From NCBI GenBank assembly GCA_019636625.1, contig JAHBXE010000007.1:102165-166164 (forward strand): a stretch of DNA of 64,000 bases. Direction: 5' to 3'. Origin of the DNA: Phycisphaeraceae bacterium (GTDB taxonomy: Bacteria; Planctomycetota; Phycisphaerae; Phycisphaerales; UBA1924). The notes below the pieces were generated by a model that had not been told where the DNA came from, searched no databases, and saw nothing but the letters and a program-made list of their open reading frames with translations. The translations under genes and the position numbers were made by a program. Shown in pieces: positions 49,400 to 63,936 of the stretch. Position 1 is the stretch's first letter. Each line of letters begins with the position of its first letter.

Positions 49400-49906
49400 A
49401 TGTCCGACGCGATGCAGCGACAACTCGACGAACTTCAACGTATGACCACAGGCGACCTCGTCTCGCGCTACGAGGAACTGCACCGCCACGCCTGCCGCAC
49501 GCGGCACCGCGCGTACCTGATCCGCAAGATCGCGTGGCGCATCCAGGCCAACGCGGAGGGCGACCTGACCGAACGGGCGCGGCGTCGCGCGGCGGAACTG
49601 GCCGACGATGCGGAAGTCCGGACGATGGCCCCGCGCTCGTTCGTCTCACCGCCGCAGCCCGGCGAGATTCGCACCCGCGTGCGGTCGCTTGACCCGAAGG
49701 ACCGCCGTGACCCACGGCTACCGCCCCCCGGCTCCGCGATCGTCCGCCAGTACAAAGGTCGGACCATCCGGGTGTCGGTGCTTGCCGACGGTGAAGGCTT
49801 CGAGTTCGACGGCGAGCGGTACCGAACGCTGTCGGTGGTTGCCAAGAAGGTGACGGGCCAGCACATCAACGGGTACCGCTTCTTCGGACTGCGGGGTGCC
49901 CGATGA
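49400..49906 (+). CDS. DUF2924 domain protein
   Basis: A 168-residue protein. N-terminal helices (QRQLDELQRMTTGDLVSRYE) and the C-terminal block YKGRTIRVSVLADGEGFEFD with RYRTLSVVAKKVTGQ and NGYRFFGL match DUF2924, a family found almost always next to large serine recombinases. The ATG at 49400 has GGAG 6-9 bp upstream. It overlaps the recombinase gene by 4 bp (ATGA). Probably helps recombination or its regulation. Confidence 0.85.
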   Translation: MSDAMQRQLDELQRMTTGDLVSRYEELHRHACRTRHRAYLIRKIAWRIQANAEGDLTERARRRAAELADDAEVRTMAPRSFVSPPQPGEIRTRVRSLDPKDRRDPRLPPPGSAIVRQYKGRTIRVSVLADGEGFEFDGERYRTLSVVAKKVTGQHINGYRFFGLRGAR

Positions 49907-51501
49907 GCAAGCGACCCCGCGCGTCCAGCGTGACGGTGGAACGCACCCGAGGAACAGCGACCGCCCCGCCGGTGCGGTGCGCGATCTACACGCGCAAGAG
50001 CAGCGAGGAAGGGCTCGAGCAGGAGTTCAACTCCCTCGACGCACAGCGCGAGGCCGGCGAGGCCTACATCGCCAGCCAGCGGAACGAGGGTTGGGTGTGC
50101 CTGCCGAACCGGTACGACGACGGTGGGTTCTCTGGCGGGAGTATGGAACGCCCGTCCCTCGAACGCCTGCTCAAGGACATCGAGGCGGGCAAGATCGACT
50201 GCGTCGTGGTCTACAAGGTGGACCGGCTCAGCCGGTCCCTCATGGACTTCGCGCGGATCATGGAGGCGTTCGACCGCAGGGGCGTCTCGTTCGTCTCGGT
50301 GACGCAGCAGTTCAACACGACCAGCTCGATGGGCAGGCTAACGCTCAACATCCTGCTGTCGTTCGCGCAGTTCGAACGCGAGATCATCGGGGAGCGCATC
50401 CGAGACAAGATCGCCGCCCAGAAGCGCCGCGGCAAGTGGGCGGGCGGGGTGCCCATCCTCGGGTACGACGTCGACCGCTCGGGCGGCAGCCCCCGCCTGG
50501 TCGTGAACCCCACGGAGGCCGTTCGGGTCCGGGAGATCTTCCAGATCTACCTGGATGCGGGCTCGCTCCAGCGTGCAGTGGCAGAGTTGAAACGTCGGGA
50601 GTGGACGAACAAGCGTCGCCTCACACGCAAGGGCGAAACGAAGGGTGGCCGACCGTTCGACGCCGGCACGCTTCATGCGCTACTGACCAACCCGATCCTG
50701 ACCGGCAAGATCGTTCACAAGGGACTGTCCTACGACGGTGAGCACGAGGGAGTTGTCGATCCCACTCTCTTCGATCGCGTACGCCAGCAGTTGGCGGAGA
50801 ACGGCCGATCTGGCGGGGCCGAGGTGCGGAACAAGTACGGCGCGCTCCTTCGCGGCGTTCTCCGGTGCAAGCACTGCGATTGCGCCATGATCCACACGTT
50901 CTACGGCAAGAAGGGCCGGTACTACCGCTACTACCGATGCTTGCACGCGATCAAGAACGGGGCCCGCACCTGCGCGGCGGCAACGCTGCCGGGCCTGGAG
51001 ATCGAGAGACTCGTGGTTGATGAGATCCGGGCGCTCGGCAATGACCGCGGGCTGCTCGACCGCACTCTTGCCGAGGCGAAGGTGAACGTGGAAGCGGAAC
51101 AAACGGCGCTGTCGACGGAACGACGGGCTATCCACGCCGCGTTGGCCCGGATGGATAGAGAACTCCGGGCATTTGTCGCTGACAACGGCGGCGGCGCGGC
51201 GGCGACCGCACGGCTGGCCAATATCCATGAACAAATCACCGGCGCACGCGCTCGCCTTGGCGAGGTCGATGAGCGGCTGGGCGAGATCGAGAGCGCCACC
51301 ATCACCCGCGATGAGGCCCGGAAGGCACTCAATGGGTTCGATGGGGTGTGGTCCCAGCTATCCCCCCGCGAGCAGGCTCGGGTCTTGAAGTTGCTGCTTT
51401 CAAAGATTGAGTACGACCCTGCGAACGCCAGCATCGCGGTCACGTTCCGGGCGACCGGCATTGCCGCTTTGTGCCGCGGGAGACTGGAGGAAGCCGCGTG
51501 A
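49903..51501 (+). CDS. Large serine recombinase
   Basis: A 532-residue site-specific recombinase. The resolvase-type catalytic domain has the nucleophilic serine at Ser33 in YTRKSSEEG and the conserved VVYKVDRLSRSLMDFARIME. A recombinase domain follows (WAGGVPILGYDVDR and RVREIFQIYLDAGS), then a zinc ribbon (RCKHCDCAMIH ... CAAATLP) and a coiled coil. It joins att sites without a tRNA preference and probably moved this island. Overlaps the DUF2924 gene by 4 bp and the next gene by 4 bp. Confidence 0.95.
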   Translation: MSKRPRASSVTVERTRGTATAPPVRCAIYTRKSSEEGLEQEFNSLDAQREAGEAYIASQRNEGWVCLPNRYDDGGFSGGSMERPSLERLLKDIEAGKIDCVVVYKVDRLSRSLMDFARIMEAFDRRGVSFVSVTQQFNTTSSMGRLTLNILLSFAQFEREIIGERIRDKIAAQKRRGKWAGGVPILGYDVDRSGGSPRLVVNPTEAVRVREIFQIYLDAGSLQRAVAELKRREWTNKRRLTRKGETKGGRPFDAGTLHALLTNPILTGKIVHKGLSYDGEHEGVVDPTLFDRVRQQLAENGRSGGAEVRNKYGALLRGVLRCKHCDCAMIHTFYGKKGRYYRYYRCLHAIKNGARTCAAATLPGLEIERLVVDEIRALGNDRGLLDRTLAEAKVNVEAEQTALSTERRAIHAALARMDRELRAFVADNGGGAAATARLANIHEQITGARARLGEVDERLGEIESATITRDEARKALNGFDGVWSQLSPREQARVLKLLLSKIEYDPANASIAVTFRATGIAALCRGRLEEAA

Positions 51502-51887
51502 CGACCGTTGTGAGGCCCATCCACTTCGCCGTAAAGGCCCGCCGCAATCGCCTCGTGGTCGGCCCCGAAGCCCCCGAGGTCGCCCCGCCTGGCCGAGTGC
51601 CCCGTATCGCCCGCCTGATGGCGTTGGCGATCAAGTACGACGACCTCTTGCGGCGTGGCGTGGTCGCGGACCTGTCGGCCCTCGCCGGACTGTGCCAGGT
51701 CACGCAGCCGCGGATGACGCAGATCATGAACCTCCTTCACCTCGCGCCGGACATTCAGGAGGAGGTTCTGTTCCTACCGCCCGTCGAGGAGGGGCGTGAC
51801 CCGATCCACGAGCACATGCTCCGCGATGTGACCCGTTCGCTGGATTGGCGGAAGCAACGCCGGGCTTGGAAGGCGATCGGCAGGTAG
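51498..51887 (+). CDS. Small HTH-like protein of the recombinase module
   Basis: A 129-residue protein. The GTG at 51498 overlaps the recombinase stop by 4 bp. A helix-turn-helix-like region (SALAGLCQVTQPRMTQIMNL) lies around residue 70-95 and resembles the ParB/KorB-type HTH. The rest is basic. It probably binds DNA at the att site or regulates the recombinase. A longer frame to 51471 lies inside the recombinase. Confidence 0.7.
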   Translation: MTTVVRPIHFAVKARRNRLVVGPEAPEVAPPGRVPRIARLMALAIKYDDLLRRGVVADLSALAGLCQVTQPRMTQIMNLLHLAPDIQEEVLFLPPVEEGRDPIHEHMLRDVTRSLDWRKQRRAWKAIGR

Positions 51888-52047: not shown

Positions 52048-54192
52048 ATGCACAACTTCAGCGACAAGGTTTCTCTGATTTGGCAGGTCGCGGATCTGCT
52101 CCGCGGCCCGTACCGCCCCAACCAGTACGGAAAGGTCATCCTCCCCCTGACGGTGCTGCGCCGGCTCGACTGCGTGCTCGAGTCCACGCGAGAGAAGGTC
52201 CGCACCAAGGCCGAGGAACTGAAGCGCAAGGGCACGCCGATCAAGAACCTGGAGCCGGTGCTCAACCGCGCCGCCATGCCGCCGGACTGGCCCAAGGACC
52301 GCCCCTTCCCGCTGCACAACACGAGCAAGTTCGACTTCCGCACGCTTGCGGGCGACCCCAACAACATCGCCAAGAACCTGACCCACTACATCAAGTGCTT
52401 CTCCTCCAAAGCACGCGAGATCATCGAGTACTTCGGGTTTGCGGAGCACATCGAGAAGCTGGACAAGGCCAACCGCCTCTACCTGATCGTCTCGAAGTTC
52501 GCCACCATCGACCTGCACCCGGCCACGGTGACCAACGTCGAGATGGGCTACATCTTCGAGGAGCTGATCCGGAAGTTCAGCGAAGCCGCGAACGAGACGG
52601 CGGGCGATCACTTCACGCCGCGCGAGGTCATCCGGCTGATCGTCAACCTGCTCTTCACGCCCGACGGCGATGTCCTGACGCGCAAGGGCATCGTCAAGAC
52701 GCTGTTCGACCCGGCGTGCGGCACCGGCGGCATGCTCTCCGTTGCCGAGGAGTACCTCGCTGAACTGAATCCCGACGCGCGGCTCGAAGTCTTCGGCCAG
52801 GACTACAACCCGGAGTCCTACGCGATCTGCGGCTCGGACATGCTCATCAAGGGCCAGAACATCGACCACATCAAGTTCGGCGACTCGTTCACGGACGACG
52901 GGTTCCCGAGCGAGCACTACGACTACATGCTGGCCAATCCGCCCTTCGGGGTTGAGTGGAAGCCTGAAGAAGATGAGATCCGCAAGGAGCACGAGACGTT
53001 GAAGATGGCCGGTCGGTTCGGCGCCGGCCTGCCCCGCATCAATGACGGCTCCCTGCTGTTCCTCCAGCACATGATCTCAAAGATGAAGCCGGTGGATCTG
53101 AAGAAGGACAACGGCGGCACGCGCATCGGCATCGTCTTCAACGGCTCCCCGCTCTTCACCGGCGATGCGGGGTCGGGCGAGAGCGAGATCCGCCGCTGGA
53201 TCATCGAGAACGACTGGCTCGAGGCCATCGTCGCGCTTCCTGACGAGCTGTTCTACAACACGGGCATCTTCACCTACGTCTGGATCGTCTCCAACCGCAA
53301 GGAGCCGCGCCGGCGCGGAATGGTCCAGCTCATCAACGCCGTCTCTTTCGCCCAGAAGATGCGAAAGTCGCTGGGGAACAAGCGCCAGGAGATCGGTGAC
53401 GGCAAGGACGACAAGCCCGACCACGTCGGCGCGATCACGCGCCTGTATGGCGAGTTCGCGGTCGGCCAGTACTCGAAGGTGTTCGACAACGCCGACTTCG
53501 GCTACCGCCAGATCACCGTCGAGCGCCCGCTTCGACTTCGATTCCAGGTGACGCCAGGGGGCGTGGCGGCGTTGCGCGAATCCGGTCCGTTCAAGAAGCT
53601 TGCAGAGGACGCGGACACCAAACCGAAGAGGCGCGGGCGGAAGGCCAAGGGCAAGGAAGCCGAGACGGACTCCACGACCACGCCCGCCCCCGCCGCCAAG
53701 CCCGCTGGGGAGGCGATCGTCGGCGTCCTCGAGGGCTTGCCGGCGGGCGAGGTCTGGATGGACCGGGCCGAGTTCCTGACGGATCTGGAGACCGCGTTCG
53801 ACGCGGCGGATGTGAAACTGTCCGCACCGATTCGCAAGGCCATTGTCGCAGCGCTCGGCGCACGCGACGAGAACGCCGCGATCTGCGTGGATGACGATGG
53901 CAACCCCGAGCCCGACCCGGAACTCCGCGACTACGAGAACGTTCCATTGAAGGAGGACATCTTCGAATACTTCGACCGCGAGGTGAAGCCCCACGTTCCC
54001 GATGCCTGGATCAGCACCGACGAGAAGCACCGCGATAAGAAGGATGGCAAGGTCGGCATCGTCGGGTACGAGATCCCGTTGACACGGCACTTCTATGTCT
54101 ACCAGCCGCCGCGCGACCTGTCGGCCATCGCGGCAGACATCACAGGTCTTGAGAAAGACATCGTGCGGATGCTCGCGGAGGTGACCAAGTGA
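52048..54192 (+). CDS. hsdM: Type I restriction-modification methyltransferase subunit
   Basis: N6-adenine methyltransferase of the type I complex. HsdM N-terminal domain (NFSDKVSLIWQVADLLRGPY), SAM motif FDPACGTGGMLSVAEEYL, catalytic motif NPPFGVEW. A lysine- and alanine-rich linker and a long C-terminal extension bring the length to 714, longer than the usual 500. The upstream 160 bp hold TTACACT and GTTTATTACACG. The stop overlaps hsdS by 4 bp (ATGA-type). Confidence 0.95.
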   Translation: MHNFSDKVSLIWQVADLLRGPYRPNQYGKVILPLTVLRRLDCVLESTREKVRTKAEELKRKGTPIKNLEPVLNRAAMPPDWPKDRPFPLHNTSKFDFRTLAGDPNNIAKNLTHYIKCFSSKAREIIEYFGFAEHIEKLDKANRLYLIVSKFATIDLHPATVTNVEMGYIFEELIRKFSEAANETAGDHFTPREVIRLIVNLLFTPDGDVLTRKGIVKTLFDPACGTGGMLSVAEEYLAELNPDARLEVFGQDYNPESYAICGSDMLIKGQNIDHIKFGDSFTDDGFPSEHYDYMLANPPFGVEWKPEEDEIRKEHETLKMAGRFGAGLPRINDGSLLFLQHMISKMKPVDLKKDNGGTRIGIVFNGSPLFTGDAGSGESEIRRWIIENDWLEAIVALPDELFYNTGIFTYVWIVSNRKEPRRRGMVQLINAVSFAQKMRKSLGNKRQEIGDGKDDKPDHVGAITRLYGEFAVGQYSKVFDNADFGYRQITVERPLRLRFQVTPGGVAALRESGPFKKLAEDADTKPKRRGRKAKGKEAETDSTTTPAPAAKPAGEAIVGVLEGLPAGEVWMDRAEFLTDLETAFDAADVKLSAPIRKAIVAALGARDENAAICVDDDGNPEPDPELRDYENVPLKEDIFEYFDREVKPHVPDAWISTDEKHRDKKDGKVGIVGYEIPLTRHFYVYQPPRDLSAIAADITGLEKDIVRMLAEVTK

Positions 54193-55652
54193 CCCCCGCT
54201 CTCCCGACACTATTCTCAGCCACAGGGGACGGGGGAGTACAGGTTGCGTCATCGGTGCGAGCGGACGGCGCCTCTGCCGGGCACTACGCGAACACGCGCG
54301 AGAGTGGTAACTCGTGGCTTGGGCGCGTGCCGGCACACTGGGGCGTTGAGAAGTTGAAGTTCATCGCCCGTGCACAGTTCAGCAACGTGGACAAGAAAAC
54401 AGAGGACGGCGAGCAGCCCGTCCGCTTATGCAACTACGTGGATGTCTACTACCACGCCCGGATCACCGCAGACATCGATTTCATGGAGGCGACCGCCGAA
54501 CCCCGCGAGGTAGCGAAGTTCCAGTTGCAGCCGGGCGACGTGCTCATCACGAAGGACTCGGAAGATCCCAACGACATCTGCGTCCCGGCGGTCGTCGCGG
54601 AGCCGTTGCCGGGCGTGCTGTGCGGATACCACCTCGCACAGGTCCGGCCCGATCCCGCGCGGACGCATGGCCCGTACCTTATGTATGCGTTCGCATCGTC
54701 CGGCATCCGCGATCAGTTCCGGATGCGGGCCAATGGGATCACCCGCTTTGGGCTTTCGCAGGACGACATTTGCAGCGCGCTCTTTCCCCTGCCCCCTCGT
54801 CCTGAGCAGGAGGCGATCGCGGCGTGGCTGGACGAGCGGACGCGGCGGATCGATGAGTTGGTCGCGGCCAAGCGGCGTCTGATCGCGCTGTTGGCCGAAC
54901 ATCGCACCGCCCTGATCACCCACGCCGTCACGAACGGCCTGAACCCCGCTGCCGCCTTGAAGCCCTCCGGCATCGACTGGCTCGGCGACGTGCCTCGACA
55001 TTGGGCAGTCGCCCCGATGTACGCCCGATACTCCGTCGAGCTGGGCAAGATGCTCGACGCGAAGCAGATTACCGGCGAACATCTGGTGCCATACATCCGA
55101 AACGTGGACGTGCGATGGGACAGTGTGAACGTTGATGACTTGCCCGAGATGGACATCGAGCCGCACGAGTACCACCGCTTCATCTTGCAGTCTGGCGACA
55201 TGGTGGCCTGCGAAGGAGGTGAGGTCGGGCGTGCCGCGTTCTGGCGGGGAGAGCTCGACCAGTGCGCCTACCAGAAGGCAATCCACCGAATCCGACCGCT
55301 GAAGCCCGCCCAGGACTACCCGAGATTCCTGTATTACGTCATGTACACGGGGTCCAAGTGCGGCGTGTTCATCGCGGGCGGTAACCCGAACACGATCCCG
55401 CATCTCACCGGAGAAGCGTTGAGGGTGTATCGCTTCGCATTTCCTCCCATCGACGAGCAACGCGCCATCGTCACCCACCTCGACGCCGCCTCCGCGAAGC
55501 TCGACGCCCTCACCGCCGCCACCGAAAACGCCATCGCCCACCTGACCGAGTACCGCCAAGCCCTGATCTCCGCCGCCGTCACGGGGAAGATCAACATCTT
55601 CGCCGGGGAGAGTGCCCACGCACGCGGGATGGAGGCACGACATAGCCCATGA
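54189..55652 (+). CDS. hsdS: Type I restriction-modification specificity subunit
   Basis: Recognises the DNA target. Two target-recognition domains start at LGRVPAHWGVEKLKF and LGDVPRHWAVAPMYA; each is followed by a conserved coiled coil (RPEQEAIAAWLDERTRRIDE and DEQRAIVTHLDAASAKLDAL). The two halves recognise different half-sites that cannot be predicted here. The C-terminal tail after AAVTGKINIFAGE is a little longer than usual. GTG start at 54189 is coupled to hsdM; its stop overlaps darT by 4 bp. Confidence 0.92.
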   Translation: MTPALPTLFSATGDGGVQVASSVRADGASAGHYANTRESGNSWLGRVPAHWGVEKLKFIARAQFSNVDKKTEDGEQPVRLCNYVDVYYHARITADIDFMEATAEPREVAKFQLQPGDVLITKDSEDPNDICVPAVVAEPLPGVLCGYHLAQVRPDPARTHGPYLMYAFASSGIRDQFRMRANGITRFGLSQDDICSALFPLPPRPEQEAIAAWLDERTRRIDELVAAKRRLIALLAEHRTALITHAVTNGLNPAAALKPSGIDWLGDVPRHWAVAPMYARYSVELGKMLDAKQITGEHLVPYIRNVDVRWDSVNVDDLPEMDIEPHEYHRFILQSGDMVACEGGEVGRAAFWRGELDQCAYQKAIHRIRPLKPAQDYPRFLYYVMYTGSKCGVFIAGGNPNTIPHLTGEALRVYRFAFPPIDEQRAIVTHLDAASAKLDALTAATENAIAHLTEYRQALISAAVTGKINIFAGESAHARGMEARHSP

Positions 55653-56281
55653 CCGCCCTGTACCACATCACGCATGTGGGGAACCTTCCCGGCATTATTG
55701 CCGCGCGCGGGCTTTGGTGCGATGCGGTGCGCACGGCAAAGGTGGCCAAGGGGATGAAGGTTGTCGGGATTGCCCACCAGCACATCAAGGACCGGCGAGC
55801 GCGGAAGGTTGTCCGGAAGGCCGCGGGCGGGACACTGGCCGACTACGTGCCGTTCTATTTCGCGCCGCGGTCACCGATGCTCTTCACGATTTCGCGCGGC
55901 AACGTCGTGGGGTACAACGGCGGGCAGGAGCAGGTCGTCCATCTGGTCTCGACGGTGGAGATCGCGTGCGGCCTGAACAAGCCGTGGTGCTTCACCGACG
56001 GGCACGCGGACATGGAGATCAGCAAGCAGTTCGAGAAACTCACCAGCCTCGACAAGATCGACTGGAACATCATGAAGGAGATCTGGTGGAACGACACGAT
56101 CCAAGACGGCGACCGCAAGCGGCGGCGTCAGGCCGAGTTCCTGGTCCACCAGATGTTCCCGTGGACGGGGGTGGCGGAGATCGGCGTGATGTCCGAGAAG
56201 ATCGCGGCCCTGGTCCGGGCGGCCTTGAACGGGGCGAAGCACAGGCCAAAGGTGGTCGTCCGAGCCGGTTGGTACTATTGA
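55649..56281 (+). CDS. darT: DarT-type DNA ADP-ribosyltransferase toxin
   Basis: Modifies thymidine in single-stranded DNA with ADP-ribose from NAD (known for the family). NAD-binding start ALYHITHVGNLPGIIAARGL, then YVPFYFAPRSPMLFTI, and the catalytic glutamate Glu163 in RRRQAEFLVHQMF. A 210-residue length is normal. It overlaps hsdS by 4 bp and lies 9 bp before darG. Position inside the type I operon suggests co-expression with hsdM and hsdS. Confidence 0.93.
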   Translation: MTALYHITHVGNLPGIIAARGLWCDAVRTAKVAKGMKVVGIAHQHIKDRRARKVVRKAAGGTLADYVPFYFAPRSPMLFTISRGNVVGYNGGQEQVVHLVSTVEIACGLNKPWCFTDGHADMEISKQFEKLTSLDKIDWNIMKEIWWNDTIQDGDRKRRRQAEFLVHQMFPWTGVAEIGVMSEKIAALVRAALNGAKHRPKVVVRAGWYY

Positions 56282-56290
56282 GGCAGAGCC

Positions 56291-57331
56291 ATGATCGAAC
56301 CGGGAAAGGACAATCTGCTGGAGGCGAACGTCGAGGCCCTCGTCAACACGGTCAACACCGTGGGCGTGATGGGCAAGGGCATCGCGCTGCAGTTCAAGAA
56401 GGCCTTTCCGGAGAACTTCGAGGTCTACGCCAGGGCGTGCGAGGCGGGCGAGGTGCAGCCGGGCAAGATGCTCACTGTCGATCTGAACCGACTCACCAAC
56501 CCGCGCTTCATCATCAACTTCCCGACCAAGCGCGACTGGAAGCACAAGGCGCGGCTGAAGGACATCGAGGCGGGTCTTCCGGCCCTTATCGAGGAAGTCC
56601 GGCGGCTTCAGATCACGTCGATCGCCGTGCCACCGCTCGGCTGCGGCAACGGTGGGTTGGACTGGCGGGAGGTGCGGCCACTGATCGAGACGGCATTCGC
56701 GGAGGTGCCCGAGGTGCGCGTCCTGCTGTTCGCGCCCAAGGGCGCACCCGAGGCAACGGCGATGCCGATCAACACGCAGCGGCCCAATATGACCCCCGGG
56801 CGTGCCGCGGTCGTGGCGGTCATGAGCCGGTACGCGGTGGTCGGCTACAGCCTCACGCTTTTGGAAGTGCAGAAGCTGCTGTACTTTCTCCAGGAGGCGG
56901 GCGAGGACCTCAAGATGCCCTTCGCCAAGGCGGCCTATGGGCCGTACGCGGACACGCTGCGGCACGTGCTCGACAAGATGGATGGGCACTTCATCCGCGG
57001 GTGGGGCGATGGAGCGAACAAGCCGGAGACGCCGCTCGAAGTCGTGCCCGAGGCGGTGGACGAGGCCGAGGCGTTCCTGGGCGCACAGTCGGCGACCCAT
57101 CAACGCTTGGAGCGCGTGGCCGAGCTGATCGAGGGCTTCGAGACTCCGTACGGCATGGAACTGCTCAGCAGCGTGCATTGGGTCGCCCAGCACGAAGATC
57201 TTGCGGCGAGAACGGACGCGGCCAAGGCTGCAGCGGCTGTGTCGGCATGGAACGAGCGCAAACGGCAGATGTTCCAGGCCGAGCACGTCGAACTCGCGTG
57301 GGGTCGCCTCAAGGAACGCGGCTGGATTTGA
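56291..57331 (+). CDS. darG: DarG-type antitoxin, macrodomain ADP-ribosyl glycohydrolase
   Basis: Removes ADP-ribose from DNA and neutralises DarT. The macrodomain spans about residues 1-155: ALVNTVNTVGVMGKGIALQF with the catalytic lysine region, and VPPLGCGNGGLDW. The C-terminal domain (about 170-346) contains LTLLEVQKLLYFLQEAGEDL and KAAYGPYADTLRHVLDKMDG, the part that binds DarT in other systems. Length 346 is normal. It follows darT after 9 bp and ends 75 bp before hsdR. Confidence 0.94.
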   Translation: MIEPGKDNLLEANVEALVNTVNTVGVMGKGIALQFKKAFPENFEVYARACEAGEVQPGKMLTVDLNRLTNPRFIINFPTKRDWKHKARLKDIEAGLPALIEEVRRLQITSIAVPPLGCGNGGLDWREVRPLIETAFAEVPEVRVLLFAPKGAPEATAMPINTQRPNMTPGRAAVVAVMSRYAVVGYSLTLLEVQKLLYFLQEAGEDLKMPFAKAAYGPYADTLRHVLDKMDGHFIRGWGDGANKPETPLEVVPEAVDEAEAFLGAQSATHQRLERVAELIEGFETPYGMELLSSVHWVAQHEDLAARTDAAKAAAAVSAWNERKRQMFQAEHVELAWGRLKERGWI

Positions 57332-57406
57332 CGGCGCTCCGCCTCGCCTGCTCTGAGTCCACGTTCATCGCGCTCGGCCGCGCTGTACTGCGCAACGGAG
57401 GTGGCC

Positions 57407-60400
57407 GTGCCCGCTGACTACAAAGAGAAGGCATTCGAGACGGCCATCGAGGAACACCTCCTCGCCCACGGCTACGCCAAGGGTGACAATCGTGACTACG
57501 ACGCCGCGTCGGCACCGAACGGGTACGACCGCGCTCGCGGGCTGTTCCCCGGCGTGTTCGTCGCGTTCGTGAAGGCAACCCAGCCGCAAGCCTGGTCAGC
57601 GCTCGAGAAGCTCCACGGCGCGGGCACCAGCGACGTTCTGGTGGATGCCCTGTGCAAGGCGATCGCCGGGAGCGATCGTGGGTCTTTGGAGATCATCCGG
57701 CACGGCTTCAAATGCTACGGCCGGCAGATTGATGTGGCGTTCTTCAAACCGTCCAGCGGGCTGAACCCCGAGACCCTGTGTCTGTACGCGATGAACGTGC
57801 TCACGGTCACGCGGCAGGTCTACTACTCCGGCACGTGCGAGAAGAGCATCGATGTCGTGCTCGCGCTCAACGGTGTGCCCATCGTCACGGCGGAGCTCAA
57901 GAACCCGATGAGCGGGCAGACCGCCGAGCACGCCAAGACCCAGTATCGGCTGGATCGGGATGAGCGGGAACTCTTGTTTGCGTTCAAACAGCGAGCGCTC
58001 GTCCATTTCGCGGTCGATCCCGATGTGGTCTGGATGACGACGCGCCTGCGGGGAAAGGAGACGTTCTTCCTGCCATTCAACAAGGGCAACGGGACCGGGG
58101 CCGGGAACCCGGAGAACCCTGCCGGGCATCGCACTTCGTACCTGTGGGAGCAGACCTGGCAGAGAGACTCGCTGCTTGACATCATCGCCCGGCTCCTCCA
58201 CCTCCAGGTGGAGGAAAGGCGGTTCACGTCGGGCACGGCCGGGCGCAAGGTGCGCAAGGAGACGATGATCTTTCCGCGCTACCACCAGCTGGATGTCGTG
58301 CGCCGGATGGAGGCGGACGCGAGGGCGCTGGGCGCTGGCCACAACTACCTCGTGCAGCACTCGGCCGGAAGCGGCAAGAGCAACTCCATCGGGTGGCTGG
58401 CCCATCGGTTGGCCAGCCTGCACGATGATGCCGACCGCCGCGTGTTCGACTCGGTCATCGTTGTGACGGATCGCGTCGTCCTGGATCAGCAGCTCCAGGA
58501 TACCATCTACCAGTTCGAGCACAAGCATGGTGTGGTGCAGAAGATCGATGAGAACTCGGCACAGCTGGCGGAGGCGATCAGGACCGGCGTTCCGATCATC
58601 ATCACGACGTTGCAGAAGTTCCCGTTCGTGACGGAGAAGGTCGCGGGGCTGCCCGACCGCCGGTACGCGGTCATCGTTGACGAAGCGCACAGCAGCCAGT
58701 CCGGGGAAACGGCGACGGAGCTCAAGGGCGTCCTCGCCGCCGATCACATCCGGCAGGAGGCGAGGAAGCAGGCCGAAGCCCAGGGCATCAAGGAGGGCGA
58801 GGAGGGAGCCGACGCGGAGGAAGAGATCCTCCGCACCATGCTGAAGCGAGGTCGCCAGCCGAACATTTCGTTCTTCGCGTTCACCGCCACGCCGAAGTAC
58901 AAGACTCTGGAAGTGTTCGGGCGGATGGGTACCGATGGCCGGCCGGCGCCATTCCATCTCTACAGCATGCGTCAGGCGATCGAGGAGGGCTTCATCCTTG
59001 ATGTGCTCCGCAACTACACGACGTACAAGACGTACTTCGGCCTCATCAAGTCGATCGAGGATGACCCCAACGTCTCGAAGCGCAAGGCCGCCAAGGCGCT
59101 GGCCCGCTTTATGACGCTGCACCCGCACAACCTGGAGCAGAAGACCGAGATCATGGTCGAACACTTCCGTGCATCGACGCGGCACAAGATCGGCGGCAAG
59201 GCCAAGGCGATGGTGGTCACCGCAAGCCGGATGCACGCGGTCCGGTACAAGCAGGCCTTCGACAAGTACATCAAGGACAATGGCTACACGGACGTCAAGA
59301 CGCTGGTCGCGTTCTCGGGCACGGTCGTCGACGACCTCGACCCGAACAAGCACTACACCGAGGGCGGCATGAACGCGGGGATCGACGGCAAAGAACTGCC
59401 GGAGAAGTTCGCCACCGAAGAGTTCCAGATCCTGCTCGTCGCGGAGAAGTACCAGACGGGCTTCGATCAGCCGCTCTTGCACACGATGTACGTGGACAAG
59501 CGCCTGGCCGGCATCCAGGCCGTGCAGACCCTCTCGCGCCTGAACCGCACGCACGCGGGCAAGGACGACACGTTCGTGCTGGACTTCTACAACGAGCGCA
59601 CGGAGATCCTCGAGGCGTTCAAGCCCTACTACGAGCAGCCGATCGTCGGCGAACGGTCTGATCCGCAGCAGCTCTACACGCTGCAGGCACGTTTGGCCGA
59701 GTTCGGCGTCTACCGCGTCGAAGAGGTCGAACAGTTCTGCGCTGTGTTCTTCCGAGGGAAGGCCAACCAATCCCCGGCAGACCACGCGAAGATGAACGCG
59801 ATTCTCGATCCGGCGGTCGAGCGGTTCAAGGCTCTGCGCGACGACGTTCGCGCCACCATGCCCGAAAAAGAATGGGTGAAGGCCAAGGAGGAGGCTCAGG
59901 AGGAGTTCCGCGGGTTGCTGTTCGCGTTCCGGGGGCTGTACGCGTTCCTGTCACAGGTCATCCCGTTTGGCGACAGCGACCTGGAGAAGCTCTACACGTA
60001 CACGCGGTTCTTGGCGGCAAAGCTTCCTCGCCGCGCCCTCGGCCCGCAGTACAACTTCGACGATGAGGTCGCACTCAAGTACTACCGCCTCCAGAAGATC
60101 AGTGAGGGGTCGATCGTGCTGGAGCCGGGCGCCGGCGGTGAACTGAAGGGCCCAACAGCCGTCGGCACAGGCATGTCGGGTGATGAGGAGGTCGAGCTCT
60201 CCCAGCTGATCGACATCCTCAACGAGCGGTTCGGCACGGACTTCAAGCCCGCCGACCAGCTCTTTCTGGATTCGGTTCGGGAGGATGCCGTCGCCAACGA
60301 GGCCCTCCGGCAGGCGGCGTCAGCGAACTCGATTGAGAACTTCAAGTTCGTGTTCGGCAAGGCGCTCGAGGGTCTGTTCATCGACCGGATGGAGCAGAAC

Positions 60401-60526
60401 GAGGAGATCTTCGCCCGGTTCATGAACGAGCCCAACTTTCAGCGCCTGGTGGAGGAGCACCTCCGCAGGCAGGTCTATGAGCAGATCCGGTCGGAACAGG
60501 CGGGCGGAGAACAACCTGTCGGTTGA
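57407..60526 (+). CDS. hsdR: Type I restriction endonuclease/translocase subunit
   Basis: Cleaves and translocates DNA. Nuclease motif with the catalytic DxxxxxELK pattern (GVPIVTAELKNPMSG), Walker A QHSAGSGKSNSIGW, DEAH-type box VIVDEAHSSQSGE, helicase motif VAEKYQTGFDQPLLHTMYVD. Length 1039 is normal. The GTG at 57407 was chosen because GGAGG lies 5-9 bp upstream; the GTG at 57401 would be directly at that site. It follows darG after 75 bp, so the modification genes and the nuclease are separated by darTG. Confidence 0.94.
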   Translation: MPADYKEKAFETAIEEHLLAHGYAKGDNRDYDAASAPNGYDRARGLFPGVFVAFVKATQPQAWSALEKLHGAGTSDVLVDALCKAIAGSDRGSLEIIRHGFKCYGRQIDVAFFKPSSGLNPETLCLYAMNVLTVTRQVYYSGTCEKSIDVVLALNGVPIVTAELKNPMSGQTAEHAKTQYRLDRDERELLFAFKQRALVHFAVDPDVVWMTTRLRGKETFFLPFNKGNGTGAGNPENPAGHRTSYLWEQTWQRDSLLDIIARLLHLQVEERRFTSGTAGRKVRKETMIFPRYHQLDVVRRMEADARALGAGHNYLVQHSAGSGKSNSIGWLAHRLASLHDDADRRVFDSVIVVTDRVVLDQQLQDTIYQFEHKHGVVQKIDENSAQLAEAIRTGVPIIITTLQKFPFVTEKVAGLPDRRYAVIVDEAHSSQSGETATELKGVLAADHIRQEARKQAEAQGIKEGEEGADAEEEILRTMLKRGRQPNISFFAFTATPKYKTLEVFGRMGTDGRPAPFHLYSMRQAIEEGFILDVLRNYTTYKTYFGLIKSIEDDPNVSKRKAAKALARFMTLHPHNLEQKTEIMVEHFRASTRHKIGGKAKAMVVTASRMHAVRYKQAFDKYIKDNGYTDVKTLVAFSGTVVDDLDPNKHYTEGGMNAGIDGKELPEKFATEEFQILLVAEKYQTGFDQPLLHTMYVDKRLAGIQAVQTLSRLNRTHAGKDDTFVLDFYNERTEILEAFKPYYEQPIVGERSDPQQLYTLQARLAEFGVYRVEEVEQFCAVFFRGKANQSPADHAKMNAILDPAVERFKALRDDVRATMPEKEWVKAKEEAQEEFRGLLFAFRGLYAFLSQVIPFGDSDLEKLYTYTRFLAAKLPRRALGPQYNFDDEVALKYYRLQKISEGSIVLEPGAGGELKGPTAVGTGMSGDEEVELSQLIDILNERFGTDFKPADQLFLDSVREDAVANEALRQAASANSIENFKFVFGKALEGLFIDRMEQNEEIFARFMNEPNFQRLVEEHLRRQVYEQIRSEQAGGEQPVG

Positions 60527-60532
60527 TATGTG

Positions 60533-60548
60533 GTGTGTAGTAAACACT
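60533..60548. promoter_or_regulatory. Imperfect palindrome upstream of the XRE gene
   Basis: GTGTGT (60533-60538) and ACACT (60544-60548) form an imperfect inverted repeat, with a 5-base spacer, in the 66-bp gap between hsdR and the XRE gene. The half-sites match those of the perfect palindrome at 61753-61769. This would fit an operator for the XRE repressor, which usually controls its own gene. No binding evidence is available. Confidence 0.45.
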
Positions 60549-60592
60549 GGACAGTTGCACCGGGCGTGGGTACGCTCGCGGAGTTGGAAACC

Positions 60593-60958
60593 ATGTCGTC
60601 CAAGAAGAAGACCTTCGGGGAGCTGATCCGCGAGAAGCGGACGGAGAAGAAGCTCACCCTGCGCAAGTTCGCTGATCGGGTGGGGCTGAGCCCCACCTAC
60701 GTGTCGCAGTTCGAGCAAGGGAACTTCGCCCCCCCACCCGCCGATCGCATCCGGAAGATGGCGGAGGTGCTCGAGGCCAATGCGGACGAGCTGATCGCCG
60801 CCGCGGGCCGCATGGCGGAAGAAGTGGCGGGCCTGATCGAGAAGAGGCCGCTCGAGATGGCCTCGTTCCTGCGTCACGCCAAGGGCTTGACGCCGCAACA
60901 GATCGAGCAACTGACCAAAATGGCCGAGGACATGAGCAAGAAACCCAAGAAGGACTGA
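60593..60958 (+). CDS. XRE-family transcriptional regulator
   Basis: A 121-residue repressor. HTH motif at about residues 8-60: GELIREKRTEKKLTLRKFAD and RVGLSPTYVSQFEQGNF. A short C-terminal helical region follows (LTPQQIEQLTKMAEDM). The ATG at 60593 has GGAG 9-12 bp upstream. It lies 6 bp before an ImmA/IrrE-type protease gene; such pairs often work as repressor and repressor-cleaving protease that relieve control after stress. Confidence 0.92.
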   Translation: MSSKKKTFGELIREKRTEKKLTLRKFADRVGLSPTYVSQFEQGNFAPPPADRIRKMAEVLEANADELIAAAGRMAEEVAGLIEKRPLEMASFLRHAKGLTPQQIEQLTKMAEDMSKKPKKD

Positions 60959-60964
60959 ACCTGC

Positions 60965-61723
60965 ATGCGGTCTATGACCACGACCAAGCAACCCAACGAA
61001 CCGAAGTTTCTGCCCGACAAGCACATCGAGGAACACGCCGATGTGCTGCTCGCCCAGTACGCCCAGCAGAGCGGGGAACCGCTCGCGCCCGGGATTCCCG
61101 TCGACGACATCGCGGAAGTTTTCCTGGGCCTCACGGTCGAGATGATGGACCTTCAGACCCTGTTCGGCGATCCGGAGGTCAACGGCGCGATCTGGATTCC
61201 CCAGAAGAAGATCGGGATCGACCAGAGCCTTGATACCCACGCGAACAAGCGGAAAGAGGGGCGGTACCACTACACGCTCGCCCACGAAATCGGGCACTGG
61301 TGGTTGCATCGTCATCTCTACACCCCTGACACGACGCAGGGCACGCTGCATGCCGGTGCCGCGGAGGCGCGGCCGACGTACGTGTGCCGGGACGGGTCCA
61401 AAGCCGCGGTCGAGATTCAGGCGAACAAATTTGCGGCGTACCTTTTGATGCCCACGAAGCTCGTTTTGGCCTGCTGGCGCGAGGTCCACGGCCTGGATGC
61501 GATCACGCTCGACTCCCTGCGCCCGAGGCAACAGAAGATTATCGCCGCAGAGGTGCTTCACCGGGGCGGCCTGTCGATGGACCCGAAGTCCATCGACAAC
61601 GCCCTGCTCGAGCACATCGCCCGCCCCGTTGCCATAAAGTTCAAGGTGTCTGCAGAGGCGATGATGTACCGCCTCGAAGCGCTGGACCTGTTGCAGCGCA
61701 AGTCGGAGCCGAGGTTGTTCTGA
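60965..61723 (+). CDS. ImmA/IrrE-family metallopeptidase
   Basis: A 252-residue zinc protease. HEIGH motif at residues 107-111 in LAHEIGHWWLHRH; EIQANKFAAYLLMPTKLVL supplies the third zinc-ligand region. In ICEBs1 ImmA cleaves the XRE repressor ImmR (known). The gene starts 6 bp after the XRE gene, so it probably acts on it. ATG at 60974 is an alternative start. The cut would release the operator found upstream of the unknown pair. Confidence 0.9.
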   Translation: MRSMTTTKQPNEPKFLPDKHIEEHADVLLAQYAQQSGEPLAPGIPVDDIAEVFLGLTVEMMDLQTLFGDPEVNGAIWIPQKKIGIDQSLDTHANKRKEGRYHYTLAHEIGHWWLHRHLYTPDTTQGTLHAGAAEARPTYVCRDGSKAAVEIQANKFAAYLLMPTKLVLACWREVHGLDAITLDSLRPRQQKIIAAEVLHRGGLSMDPKSIDNALLEHIARPVAIKFKVSAEAMMYRLEALDLLQRKSEPRLF

Positions 61724-61752
61724 CCCGGCTCTTTTTTTTCGGTTTATCGTTT

Positions 61753-61769
61753 AGTGTGTTATACACACT
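61753..61769. promoter_or_regulatory. Perfect 17-bp palindrome, candidate operator
   Basis: AGTGTGT-TAT-ACACACT is a perfect palindrome 36 bp before the start of the unknown gene at 61805. It overlaps a possible -10 element (TATACA). Upstream lies a T-run (61732-61739) that may act as the terminator of the ImmA gene or as part of the -35. The GTGTGT/ACACT half-sites recur upstream of the XRE gene, which suggests one regulator for both. Confidence 0.7.
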
Positions 61770-61804
61770 GCATTCAGTCACTCAACCCCGTCGGAGACGA
61801 TCCC

Positions 61805-62974
61805 ATGAGCAAGCCGTTCGATCCTCGGAAAATTCTCAAGCACATCCGCAACGACCTGTTGCGCCCCTTCTTCGACCTGCACGGCGGGCTTGAGGGCGTG
61901 GCGTGGCAGGGGCTGAGCGACACGGACATGGACACCGTCTTCGCCGCCTGGCAGAAGATGCCCGACGACAAGCGGGAGATCGTCCAGGTTGTGCTCCAGG
62001 ACATCAACGAACTCGCAGATGATCGCGGCGTCAAGGTGCTCGTCGAGGAGATTCAGCGGAGCTCGCCGGAACGGCTCCCAGAATGCCACGCCTACGCCGG
62101 CAAGGCCGACCGGGCGATGTGGACCTACTTGAACGTGCGCACCGCGTTCAGCTGGGCCGCGCACTTCGCCCGCGCCGACGCCCTGTCGTCCGGTCGCTAC
62201 TGGATCAAGCGCAACACGCTCCCGAAGCAGGCGATCACGGTGACCGCCGCGCACAAGACGGCGCTGCAAGAGGCGCTGACCGGCTTCTACTGGAGCACCC
62301 AGATGCGCGGCCGGTTCTGCGTCATCGAGCATTACCAACGTACCAACGGGAGTGACTACTTCTTCGCCTACCTGGAGGACTATCCCGACGCGCCCGCGGT
62401 CTTCGAGGCCAACGGCCAGGTCGTCCGCCGCGAAGAGCGCCGGGCGTTCGACAACGTCTTCGTGTTCAACCCCTCGGATGGCTCCCTGGAGATGTTCGCG
62501 CCGGGCGGCAAGGCCGTGTATGAGCCGCTCCAAAAGGCGTTCTGCAAGGCGGTCATGGGGCTCGACGTCGGGCCGGCCGATCCGCTGCGTCCGGCGTACG
62601 CGCTGGATCACCTCCTCAAACCGAACCGGGCCATGCCCACCGAGCCCGCGGATCGCATCGCCGAAGTCAAGATCACGCGCGCGCGGCTCCAGATCGTGGA
62701 CCGTCCGGCGGAGTATGTCGAGCTGGGTATCGATCGCCGCGGAGGCGGGGGGCTCGATCGAGCCATCCAGGAGTACCTCAACACCTCCCGGCTTCCTCTT
62801 GACCGCCTGCGCGTGAGGCAGATGTCCTTCCAGCTTGTGTTCGCGGGCAACACGCGGGCACGCAGCGTCAGCTTCAGCGTGAGCTGTCCGAACTCCTGTG
62901 ACCTCAAGAGCCGTCCCGATGCCCAGCGGGCGATCGGGGAGCGTTGCCTCCGGCTCTGGGGAGTCACGCAATGA
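61805..62974 (+). CDS. Unknown protein, first of a coupled pair in the island
   Basis: A 389-residue protein without recognisable family. It is helix-rich at the N-terminus (KILKHIRNDLLRPFFDLHGG, DKREIVQVVLQDINELADDR) and mixed later (FYWSTQMRGRFCVIEHYQRT, then VKITRARLQIVDRPAEYVEL). No signal peptide, no membrane helix and no nucleotide-binding loop. The ATG at 61805 has GGAG 8-11 bp upstream. It overlaps the next gene by 4 bp (ATGA). The palindrome upstream suggests repressor control. The position beside RM, DarTG and XRE-ImmA suggests a defence or mobile-element role. Confidence 0.8.
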   Translation: MSKPFDPRKILKHIRNDLLRPFFDLHGGLEGVAWQGLSDTDMDTVFAAWQKMPDDKREIVQVVLQDINELADDRGVKVLVEEIQRSSPERLPECHAYAGKADRAMWTYLNVRTAFSWAAHFARADALSSGRYWIKRNTLPKQAITVTAAHKTALQEALTGFYWSTQMRGRFCVIEHYQRTNGSDYFFAYLEDYPDAPAVFEANGQVVRREERRAFDNVFVFNPSDGSLEMFAPGGKAVYEPLQKAFCKAVMGLDVGPADPLRPAYALDHLLKPNRAMPTEPADRIAEVKITRARLQIVDRPAEYVELGIDRRGGGGLDRAIQEYLNTSRLPLDRLRVRQMSFQLVFAGNTRARSVSFSVSCPNSCDLKSRPDAQRAIGERCLRLWGVTQ

Positions 62975-63936
62975 CCACGGCCCTCTCGATCCTCTGGGCG
63001 TGTTTCGACTCGGCTGAACCGCAGTTCTCGTACCGCGAAGTTCACTCCTGGCCCGAGGCGAACAGGAAGTGGTTGTTGGAGTCCGGCGTGCTTGTCGAAT
63101 CGGGCGCGGCCACATCGATTGCCTGTCCCACTTGCCCCGACGCGCACGTTGAAGAAGTTCTCGAGCTGCCGGACTCCACCCCGCCTCGCTTCTTCATCCC
63201 GTGCCCAGAGGAGGTGCGGGTCGAGATCGCTCTCGAACACCTCCGGCAGTGGACCGTGGATATGGACGCCGTCGCGGCGATCATTGCGCGGGCGCTCACG
63301 CTCGCCGGCGGCGTCAGGGTAGTGTCACCCGGGCGGCTCTGGAGGCTGGGCACGACCAAGCTGGGGGCGACGTCGCGCGAAGTGGTTCTGATGCGGCGAC
63401 AGAATGGGGAGGACGGCGCGAGCGTCGCCGCCCACATCGGCCAGACGGGCAGACCCATCGTGCTGTTCGCGGGTGGTGAACCCGCAGCGTCGATCTGGCC
63501 GGGTCGGACGCCGGCGTGCATCGCGTTGCCGCGCGTGATGTCGCACAACGGAGTGTCGCTCGAGGCCAACGCCCTGCTTCTGCATGAACTGGTGAGCCGT
63601 GCGGACGATCTCCAGTCGCAGCTGCACGCGGTCCCGATCGATCCAAAGGGCAAGAAGCTGATCGTGCGCCGTCAACTCAAAGCCGAGCTCGCCTCGCACC
63701 TGGACGATAGCAACCTCGTGGCGGCCTACCGGCAGCATGGTTCCATGCGGAAAGCGGCGAAGGCCCTGACCTCCGAACGCGGGACACCCGTCACGAAGGA
63801 CACGGTGGCACGAGCCGTGGCCCGCGCGGGCGGAGCGAAGGCGGTGATGAACGTCGAAGACAGCGAGTCGGTGGGGCGCTCTGTCGCGTCGCACCGCCGC
63901 GACAGAGGAAAGAACATGGATCGATACCGCAACTAG
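62971..63936 (+). CDS. Unknown protein with zinc-ribbon-like and HTH-like parts
   Basis: A 321-residue protein. It has CPTCPDAH at about residues 51-58, where a zinc ribbon could be formed with a later FIPCPEEV cysteine. The middle has LWRLGTTKLGATSREVVLMR, and the C-terminus SMRKAAKALTSERGTPVTKD looks like a helix-turn-helix that could bind DNA. It overlaps the preceding gene by 4 bp and is probably co-translated with it. Family not recognised. The last 64 bases of the window after it hold no gene that I can support. Confidence 0.78.
   Translation: MTTALSILWACFDSAEPQFSYREVHSWPEANRKWLLESGVLVESGAATSIACPTCPDAHVEEVLELPDSTPPRFFIPCPEEVRVEIALEHLRQWTVDMDAVAAIIARALTLAGGVRVVSPGRLWRLGTTKLGATSREVVLMRRQNGEDGASVAAHIGQTGRPIVLFAGGEPAASIWPGRTPACIALPRVMSHNGVSLEANALLLHELVSRADDLQSQLHAVPIDPKGKKLIVRRQLKAELASHLDDSNLVAAYRQHGSMRKAAKALTSERGTPVTKDTVARAVARAGGAKAVMNVEDSESVGRSVASHRRDRGKNMDRYRN

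Follow-up and report, generated by a model that had tools for sequence, protein, structure and literature searches.

What is the role of two coupled genes of no recognisable family that lie directly behind an XRE-type repressor and an ImmA/IrrE-type metalloprotease, at the very end of a contig from a Phycisphaeraceae bacterium (Planctomycetota; assembly GCA_019636625.1, contig JAHBXE010000007.1)? We call the two genes A and B, and we refer to the whole 64,000-nucleotide stretch that was analysed (positions 102,165 to 166,164 of the contig, forward strand) as the window; it is the last part of the 166-kilobase (kb) contig, which stops right after gene B. An earlier note on this DNA had proposed an inducible pair of effectors within a defence island, released when the protease cuts the repressor. 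Our best reading is that A-B is a DNA-binding pair that a temperate phage uses early in lytic growth, and that some copies have entered defence loci. This reading draws on the gene order in relatives, on the linkage and co-divergence of A and B, on the link between a candidate operator and ImmA, and on the predicted fold of A. The four genes at the centre of the question are these:

60593 to 60958, plus strand: XRE-type repressor, ImmR/CapH-like (Pfam HTH_31 1.9e-12, HTH_3 6.3e-12; PADLOC capH 2.2e-16)
60965 to 61723, plus strand: ImmA/IrrE-type metalloprotease (Pfam Peptidase_M78 7.2e-11; PADLOC capP 3.1e-19)
61805 to 62974, plus strand: gene A, 389 residues (phrog_37634 2.6e-30); helical N-terminus and two alpha/beta domains, predicted RdgC/CENP-N-type fold
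62971 to 63936, plus strand: gene B, 321 residues; a C52/C55/H59/C78 set and a helical C-terminus with helix-turn-helix (HTH) likeness

All four are as the earlier note had them, A and B being coupled by an ATGA overlap. The start codon of the XRE gene is uncertain, with an in-frame GTG at 60530. The protease carries HEIGH, a motif of the HEXXH type, at residue 107, and the window thus holds what defines an ImmR-ImmA switch, an XRE repressor with an adjoining M78 protease that bears HEXXH. The claim that A and B lack a recognisable family also stands: neither matched PADLOC (at E 1), NCBIfam or, above cut-off, Pfam, and A was placed in phrog_37634, whose function is unknown. A search of phage records with A at E 0.01 gave no match.

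A and B are tightly linked. We assembled 109 loci, near-duplicates among them, from 42 viral contigs found through A, seven found through B, 11 genome contigs, the window and further genome stretches. Gene B comes immediately after A, in the same orientation, at 107 of the 108 loci that have A, and the exception (L025) looks like a chimera. The 102 of 108 A sequences that are full length were reduced to 68 representatives below 90% identity, and over 65 of these the distances among A sequences followed those among B sequences with r 0.90, the largest of 2000 permutations giving 0.29. At least one early phage gene follows the pair on the same strand at 80 of the 95 loci with 3 kb of room, a count that takes in an Hma locus beside prophage remnants (L131), and ImmA is directly upstream of A at 51 of the 83 loci with 2 kb of room. 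The sequence search found 66 homologues of B and 360 of A, the best 120 of the latter being listed. Of 298 Phycisphaerae genomes 39 carry A, as do 35 of the 231 better ones; the family profile finds it in 22 of 392 genomes across the phylum, other classes included. The regulator varies while the pair persists: one locus (L160:4473-6321) has a LexA-type repressor (LexA_DNA_bind, Peptidase_S24) directly before A where XRE-ImmA would otherwise stand, with a serine recombinase nearby, and another (L144) has a tyrosine-type integrase, read from the sequence, together with a Toprim/D5-type primase.

The setting of the pair is a prophage, and what had been taken for a defence island is the cargo slot between its integrase and its repressor. 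In relatives the order runs serine recombinase, cargo, XRE, ImmA, A, B, sigma-like gene, Sak4, single-stranded DNA-binding protein (SSB), helicase, primase. Three of them (L003, L004 and L006) match positions 57408-63908 of the window at 84-87% over 6.5 kb by blastn, beginning in an hsdR-like gene, and past B they carry genes that lie beyond the reach of the window's contig. Behind B, related loci have genes for a sigma-70 region 2 protein, a Sak4-like ATPase and a DUF669-type SSB, and further on for a helicase (named from sequence), a primase-polymerase and a ParB-methylase. The element in G002 continues into terminase, portal, head/protease, major tail and tape-measure genes, and this relative therefore has the integrase, replication, packaging, head and tail genes of a temperate phage in one element; terminase and portal are present in G171 too. 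The window itself holds the left part of a prophage only, and the same genome has a terminase homologue (86%) on another contig, of 7.5 kb. In close relatives, then, the pair opens a prophage early block, which does not support an effector pair that stands alone in a defence island. Neither the prophage setting nor the fact that the contig ends with the window had been part of the earlier note.

Two observations on these prophages may be added. In one locus (L011:12335-12913) the gene after B encodes a small sigma-70 region 2 protein, and matches to it occupy this place in many loci; these phages may thus have a sigma factor of their own. One complete genome (G171; C1:211000-310999 and 3108000-3127999; L126-L131) has three copies of the pair: the prophage that bears terminase and portal genes has one, a second prophage has another in which A is fragmented, and the third comes after Hma genes, with phage remnants alongside.

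Upstream of the repressor, the window reads as follows:

49903 to 51501, plus strand: large serine recombinase, probable prophage integrase (Pfam Resolvase 1.1e-38, Recombinase 3e-12, Zn_ribbon_recom 6.7e-12)
51471 to 51887, plus strand: small open reading frame (ORF) behind the recombinase, overlapping its end; no Pfam match at E 0.01
52048 to 55652, plus strand: cargo, type I restriction-modification (RM) genes hsdM (52048-54192) and hsdS (54189-55652), named from translation
55649 to 57331, plus strand: cargo, DarT (55649-56281; Pfam DarT 3e-59) and a macro-domain DarG-type protein (56291-57331; Pfam Macro 1.4e-23)
57401 to 60526, plus strand: cargo, hsdR-like gene, named from translation

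Homologues of the recombinase precede A in relatives, and RM genes occupy the slot that follows it. The slot contains varied genes, with hsdM- and hsdR-like matches in many of 77 loci. DarT and its macro-domain partner do lie upstream of the pair, as had been claimed of DarTG, and they sit within the type I RM cargo; matches to this DarT were limited to the window among the 77 loci and numbered 0 of 40 in a second locus set. Several relatives, G002 and G644 among them, also have a small ORF behind the recombinase that by eye resembles the one at 51471-51887. In one locus (L005:6320-8722) the recombinase is fused in frame to the end of an hsdR-like gene, which is probably a deletion or an assembly join.

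Is the pair under the control of the switch that precedes it? The DNA around the two promoters offers three candidate elements:

60533 to 60547, minus strand: candidate operator upstream of XRE, GTGTTTACTACACAC, with a GTTTA[CG] core
61753 to 61769, plus strand: candidate operator upstream of A, AGTGTGTTATACACACT, inside cGTTTAGTGTGTTATACACACTG, with a GTTTA[CG] core
61705 to 61739, plus strand: candidate intrinsic terminator overlapping the immA stop, a hairpin and eight T (-16.7 kcal/mol, z -2.34)

The site before A had been called a perfect 17-bp palindrome, which needs correcting: in the window it has 7-bp arms around three bases (7+3+7), and an 8+1+8 version occurs in L004, L005, L006 and L014. 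A search with this site at up to three mismatches found only itself, read on each strand, where shuffles averaged 0.03 matches. The related site that had been reported upstream of the repressor is indeed there. In ImmA-bearing loci a GTTTA[CG] element, often GTTTACTGTTCA..GGAC, lies about 30-56 bp before the start of A, with a mirrored counterpart in front of XRE. Of 31 ImmA-bearing representatives, 23 have it before A, where 1000 mononucleotide shuffles gave 2.4 on average and 10 at most; before XRE it occurs in 12 of 27, where shuffles averaged 1.4 and never exceeded 6. By this post hoc motif the repressor and target promoters share a candidate operator, as in an ImmR-ImmA switch. Other genes rarely have it (B 1/31, sigma 0/27, Sak4 0/24, DUF669 0/18, helicase 0/20), and among representatives with at least 90 bp upstream of A and no adjoining ImmA it was found in 1 of 32. 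Because the relatives are not independent, we repeated the comparison within the 45-row phage side of the tree of A, setting aside five rows with less than 90 bp upstream; the site was present in 23 of 31 rows with ImmA as against 0 of 9 without. One of the rows set aside (L045) has the site, and its contig begins before any ImmA could show. The site thus tracks the presence of ImmA, which supports the control of the pair by XRE-ImmA that the earlier note had proposed. The hairpin separates immA from A in the window, and 6 of 200 shuffles were equally stable; our terminator pattern scan, limited to loops of 3-8, had missed it.

The protein products suggest what might be released. The predicted model of A (predicted local distance difference test, pLDDT, 85.1; predicted template modelling score, pTM, 0.78) folds like two DNA-binding proteins, RdgC of bacteria and CENP-N of the eukaryotic kinetochore. 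The model has the RdgC-type fold, and it superposes on CENP-N residues 1-207 with a root-mean-square deviation (rmsd) of 5.2 A over 187 residues; the CENP rows of the Foldseek search have 6-11% identity to A. The resemblance is one of predicted structure: at E 5 A had no match in Pfam, RdgC (PF04381) included, and no CENP-N or CENP-L row was among the five matches of profile A1 to PDB sequences at E 1. PF04381 is itself absent from the window's genome.

For B (pLDDT 83.5, pTM 0.64) the model had no clear match in the PDB. Columns C52, C55, H59 and C78 hold Cys or His in 60, 64, 55 and 65 of 65 representatives, a pattern in the alignment that bears out the zinc-type cysteines claimed earlier and would fit a metal site. 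The C-terminal HTH that had also been claimed fares less evenly, for helices are predicted there in the model while the sequence match is weak (HTH_50 18.4 bits against a cut-off of 27); the helices at 241-285 resemble a transposase HTH. One stretch of B reaches a mean hydropathy of 1.77 (window of 19 residues), yet the prediction is globular.

We therefore suggest that A-B is likely to be kept off until the protease removes the repressor. During lysogeny XRE would bind the site at 61753-61769 and hold the promoter of A. After DNA damage ImmA would cut XRE, by analogy with what ImmA does to ImmR, and with XRE gone A and B would be expressed as the first early proteins at the start of lytic growth. 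A could then clamp DNA as a dimer, much as RdgC and lambda RexA bind DNA, and B could give the pair its target or regulate an early promoter. In the manner of lambda RexA, the pair would stabilise the lytic state and ready phage DNA for the downstream Sak4/SSB/primase module, and the chromosomal branch beside defence systems probably employs the same DNA-binding activity. In ImmR-ImmA systems, according to PMC6872733 (see also PMC12637031), a signal such as DNA damage leads the protease to cut the repressor, upon which lytic genes are transcribed. According to PMC11077077, the gene for lambda RexA, a protein of RdgC fold, adjoins that for CI, and RexA binds DNA regardless of its sequence and favours the lytic state. 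For the specific proposal that A acts in the manner of RexA and that B is its DNA-binding partner, we would put the chances as evenly balanced.

Several observations weigh against this account. ImmA is not directly upstream of A at 32 of the 83 loci, so the pair does not need the XRE-ImmA switch. We chose the GTTTA[CG] core after reading the sequences, the site is missing upstream of A in 8 of the 31 ImmA loci, and XRE has it in just 12 of 27. The hairpin is weaker in five relatives folded alike (z -1.23 to +0.39), which leaves it a candidate terminator of the window, and a sigma-70 promoter was looked for and none was found. The primase-polymerase of G171, used as a query, had no match in the window's genome. 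As for the fold, the best Foldseek E value for A was 1.7e-3, with CENP and RdgC rows at rmsd 4.7-6.5 A, and no RexA entry was among the 50 rows listed; hhalign found no sequence-level link, at a probability of 0.1% for A against RdgC and 0.5% against four RexA sequences, a comparison that likewise fails at 0.1% for RdgC against RexA, which are known structural relatives. Lastly, the defence neighbours of a chromosomal clade suggest another use of the pair.

This clade lies at the heart of the alternative that survives best, namely that A-B is a Rex-like exclusion or defence pair, acting from prophages against competing phages and from chromosomes in defence loci, with XRE-ImmA setting the timing only. 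In a tree of 66 A representatives (two short, divergent rows of the 68 being left out), all 12 off-phage copies fall within one part of 21 rows, requiring four changes as against a shuffled mean of 11.1, and eight off-phage representatives form one starred clade (99/90). Defence systems stand next to A in five of these eight, a count that lacks a background rate for random genes: HmaB and HmaC in L131 (HmaC in its near copy L145), Cas3g/Cas1g/Cas2g of Cas I-G in L143, IetA and IetS in L154, HEC-07 with a methylase (MTase) in L152, and type IIG RM genes in L156. The fold family, moreover, includes RexA (PMC11077077). PADLOC has no match for A or B themselves, nor for the two neighbours each of L141 and L155 (L164 lay outside the scan), and no ImmA was detected next to A in any of the eight. 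The earlier note had proposed to check whether the pair occurs with XRE-ImmA and with defence genes, and the answer is split: ImmA is there at the 51 loci given above and defence systems are there in this divergent clade, but in the copies beside defence systems no XRE-ImmA was detected, so one arrangement fails to explain the other. Of the earlier defence-island reading a part holds: the pair belongs to a prophage, and a separate branch of the family is found alongside defence systems. The lambda rex genes are expressed in the lysogen, whereas the prophage pair sits behind a candidate operator and a candidate terminator, as would suit an early gene. On balance we consider an exclusion or defence pair unlikely. 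We also observed that in two genomes (L131:3950-12832 and L145:8787-18342) the pair lies about 60 bp after an HmaC-type ATPase gene on the same strand, in an Hma-operon-like arrangement; in L131 the distance from hmaC to the start of A is 62 bp.

A second alternative is that the pair starts or regulates the replication of mobile elements, with B on an origin or early promoter and A loading or protecting DNA. Primase or helicase genes follow the pair in unlike elements, namely the Sak4/SSB/PrimPol phages, L144, L153 and L158 (in the last two read from translations), but no replication module adjoins the chromosomal copies found next to Hma, IetAS and Cas I-G, and we regard this explanation as distinctly improbable. 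That A or B is a directionality factor for serine-integrase excision of the prophage seems to us very improbable indeed, since, although the pair is early in serine-recombinase phages and A 293-326 has a weak likeness to phrog_6474 (recombination directionality factor), that likeness is at chance level (E 0.1), the pair occurs with a tyrosine integrase in L144, and no integrase was seen in L131, L143 or L154.

Under the reading that we prefer, in which the pair would bind DNA early in the lytic growth of a temperate phage, A-B is a two-gene family that has no named family in the libraries searched and that marks the first early genes of a widespread planctomycete prophage group. Since the operator tracks the XRE-ImmA switch, the switch is open to testing, and the chromosomal branch that neighbours Hma, IetAS and Cas I-G offers a defence candidate that can be tested directly. 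If A is a clamp of the RexA/RdgC type, then the story of lambda RexA, a DNA binder beside the repressor that biases the lytic decision, reaches an unrelated phage group; and if the closeness to CENP-N and CENP-L reflects descent, it bears on the origin of these kinetochore subunits. It is a far-reaching speculation, and one we doubt, that A, a DNA clamp carried by phages, is of the CENP-N/CENP-L type and stems from the same prokaryotic source as those subunits, and that A-B is a transferable DNA-gripping module. Temperate phages would use this module to lock the lytic state, and one branch of it would have been taken up by defence loci (Hma, IetAS, Cas I-G and others) to serve against phages in the way of Rex.

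How does this locus compare with known systems? With ImmR-ImmA of ICEBs1 and the CI-like/MpaR pairs of phages it has in common that a small XRE repressor precedes an M78 (DUF955) protease, that the block to be released is nearby and that both promoters have candidate operators; unlike in those systems, the repressor, the protease and the block predicted to be released share a strand here, with a candidate terminator between. CapH and CapP of the cyclic oligonucleotide-based antiphage signalling system (CBASS) are the best PADLOC defence models for XRE and ImmA, but XRE and ImmA are followed by A and B and, in relatives, by genes of phage replication after these; none of the genes was identified as belonging to CBASS, A and B having no PADLOC model at E 1 that would make them the CD-NTase and Cap effector expected behind CapHP. 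RdgC differs from A in having no sequence match to it, and A has in addition an extra helical N-terminus. CENP-N and CENP-L (Chl4 and Iml3 in yeast) are eukaryotic kinetochore proteins to which A is likened by predicted fold, at 6-11% identity. Lambda RexA and the Rex-like proteins of actinophages differ from A in that A has no sequence similarity to them and lies behind its own candidate operator, and B is not recognisably RexB, the membrane partner of RexA. What they share with A is that each is a phage protein encoded next to a repressor; the Sbash RexA homologue, at 372 residues, is close in length to the 389 of A, and RexA is RdgC/Iml3/Chl4-like (PMC11077077), the same families that the predicted fold of A matches.

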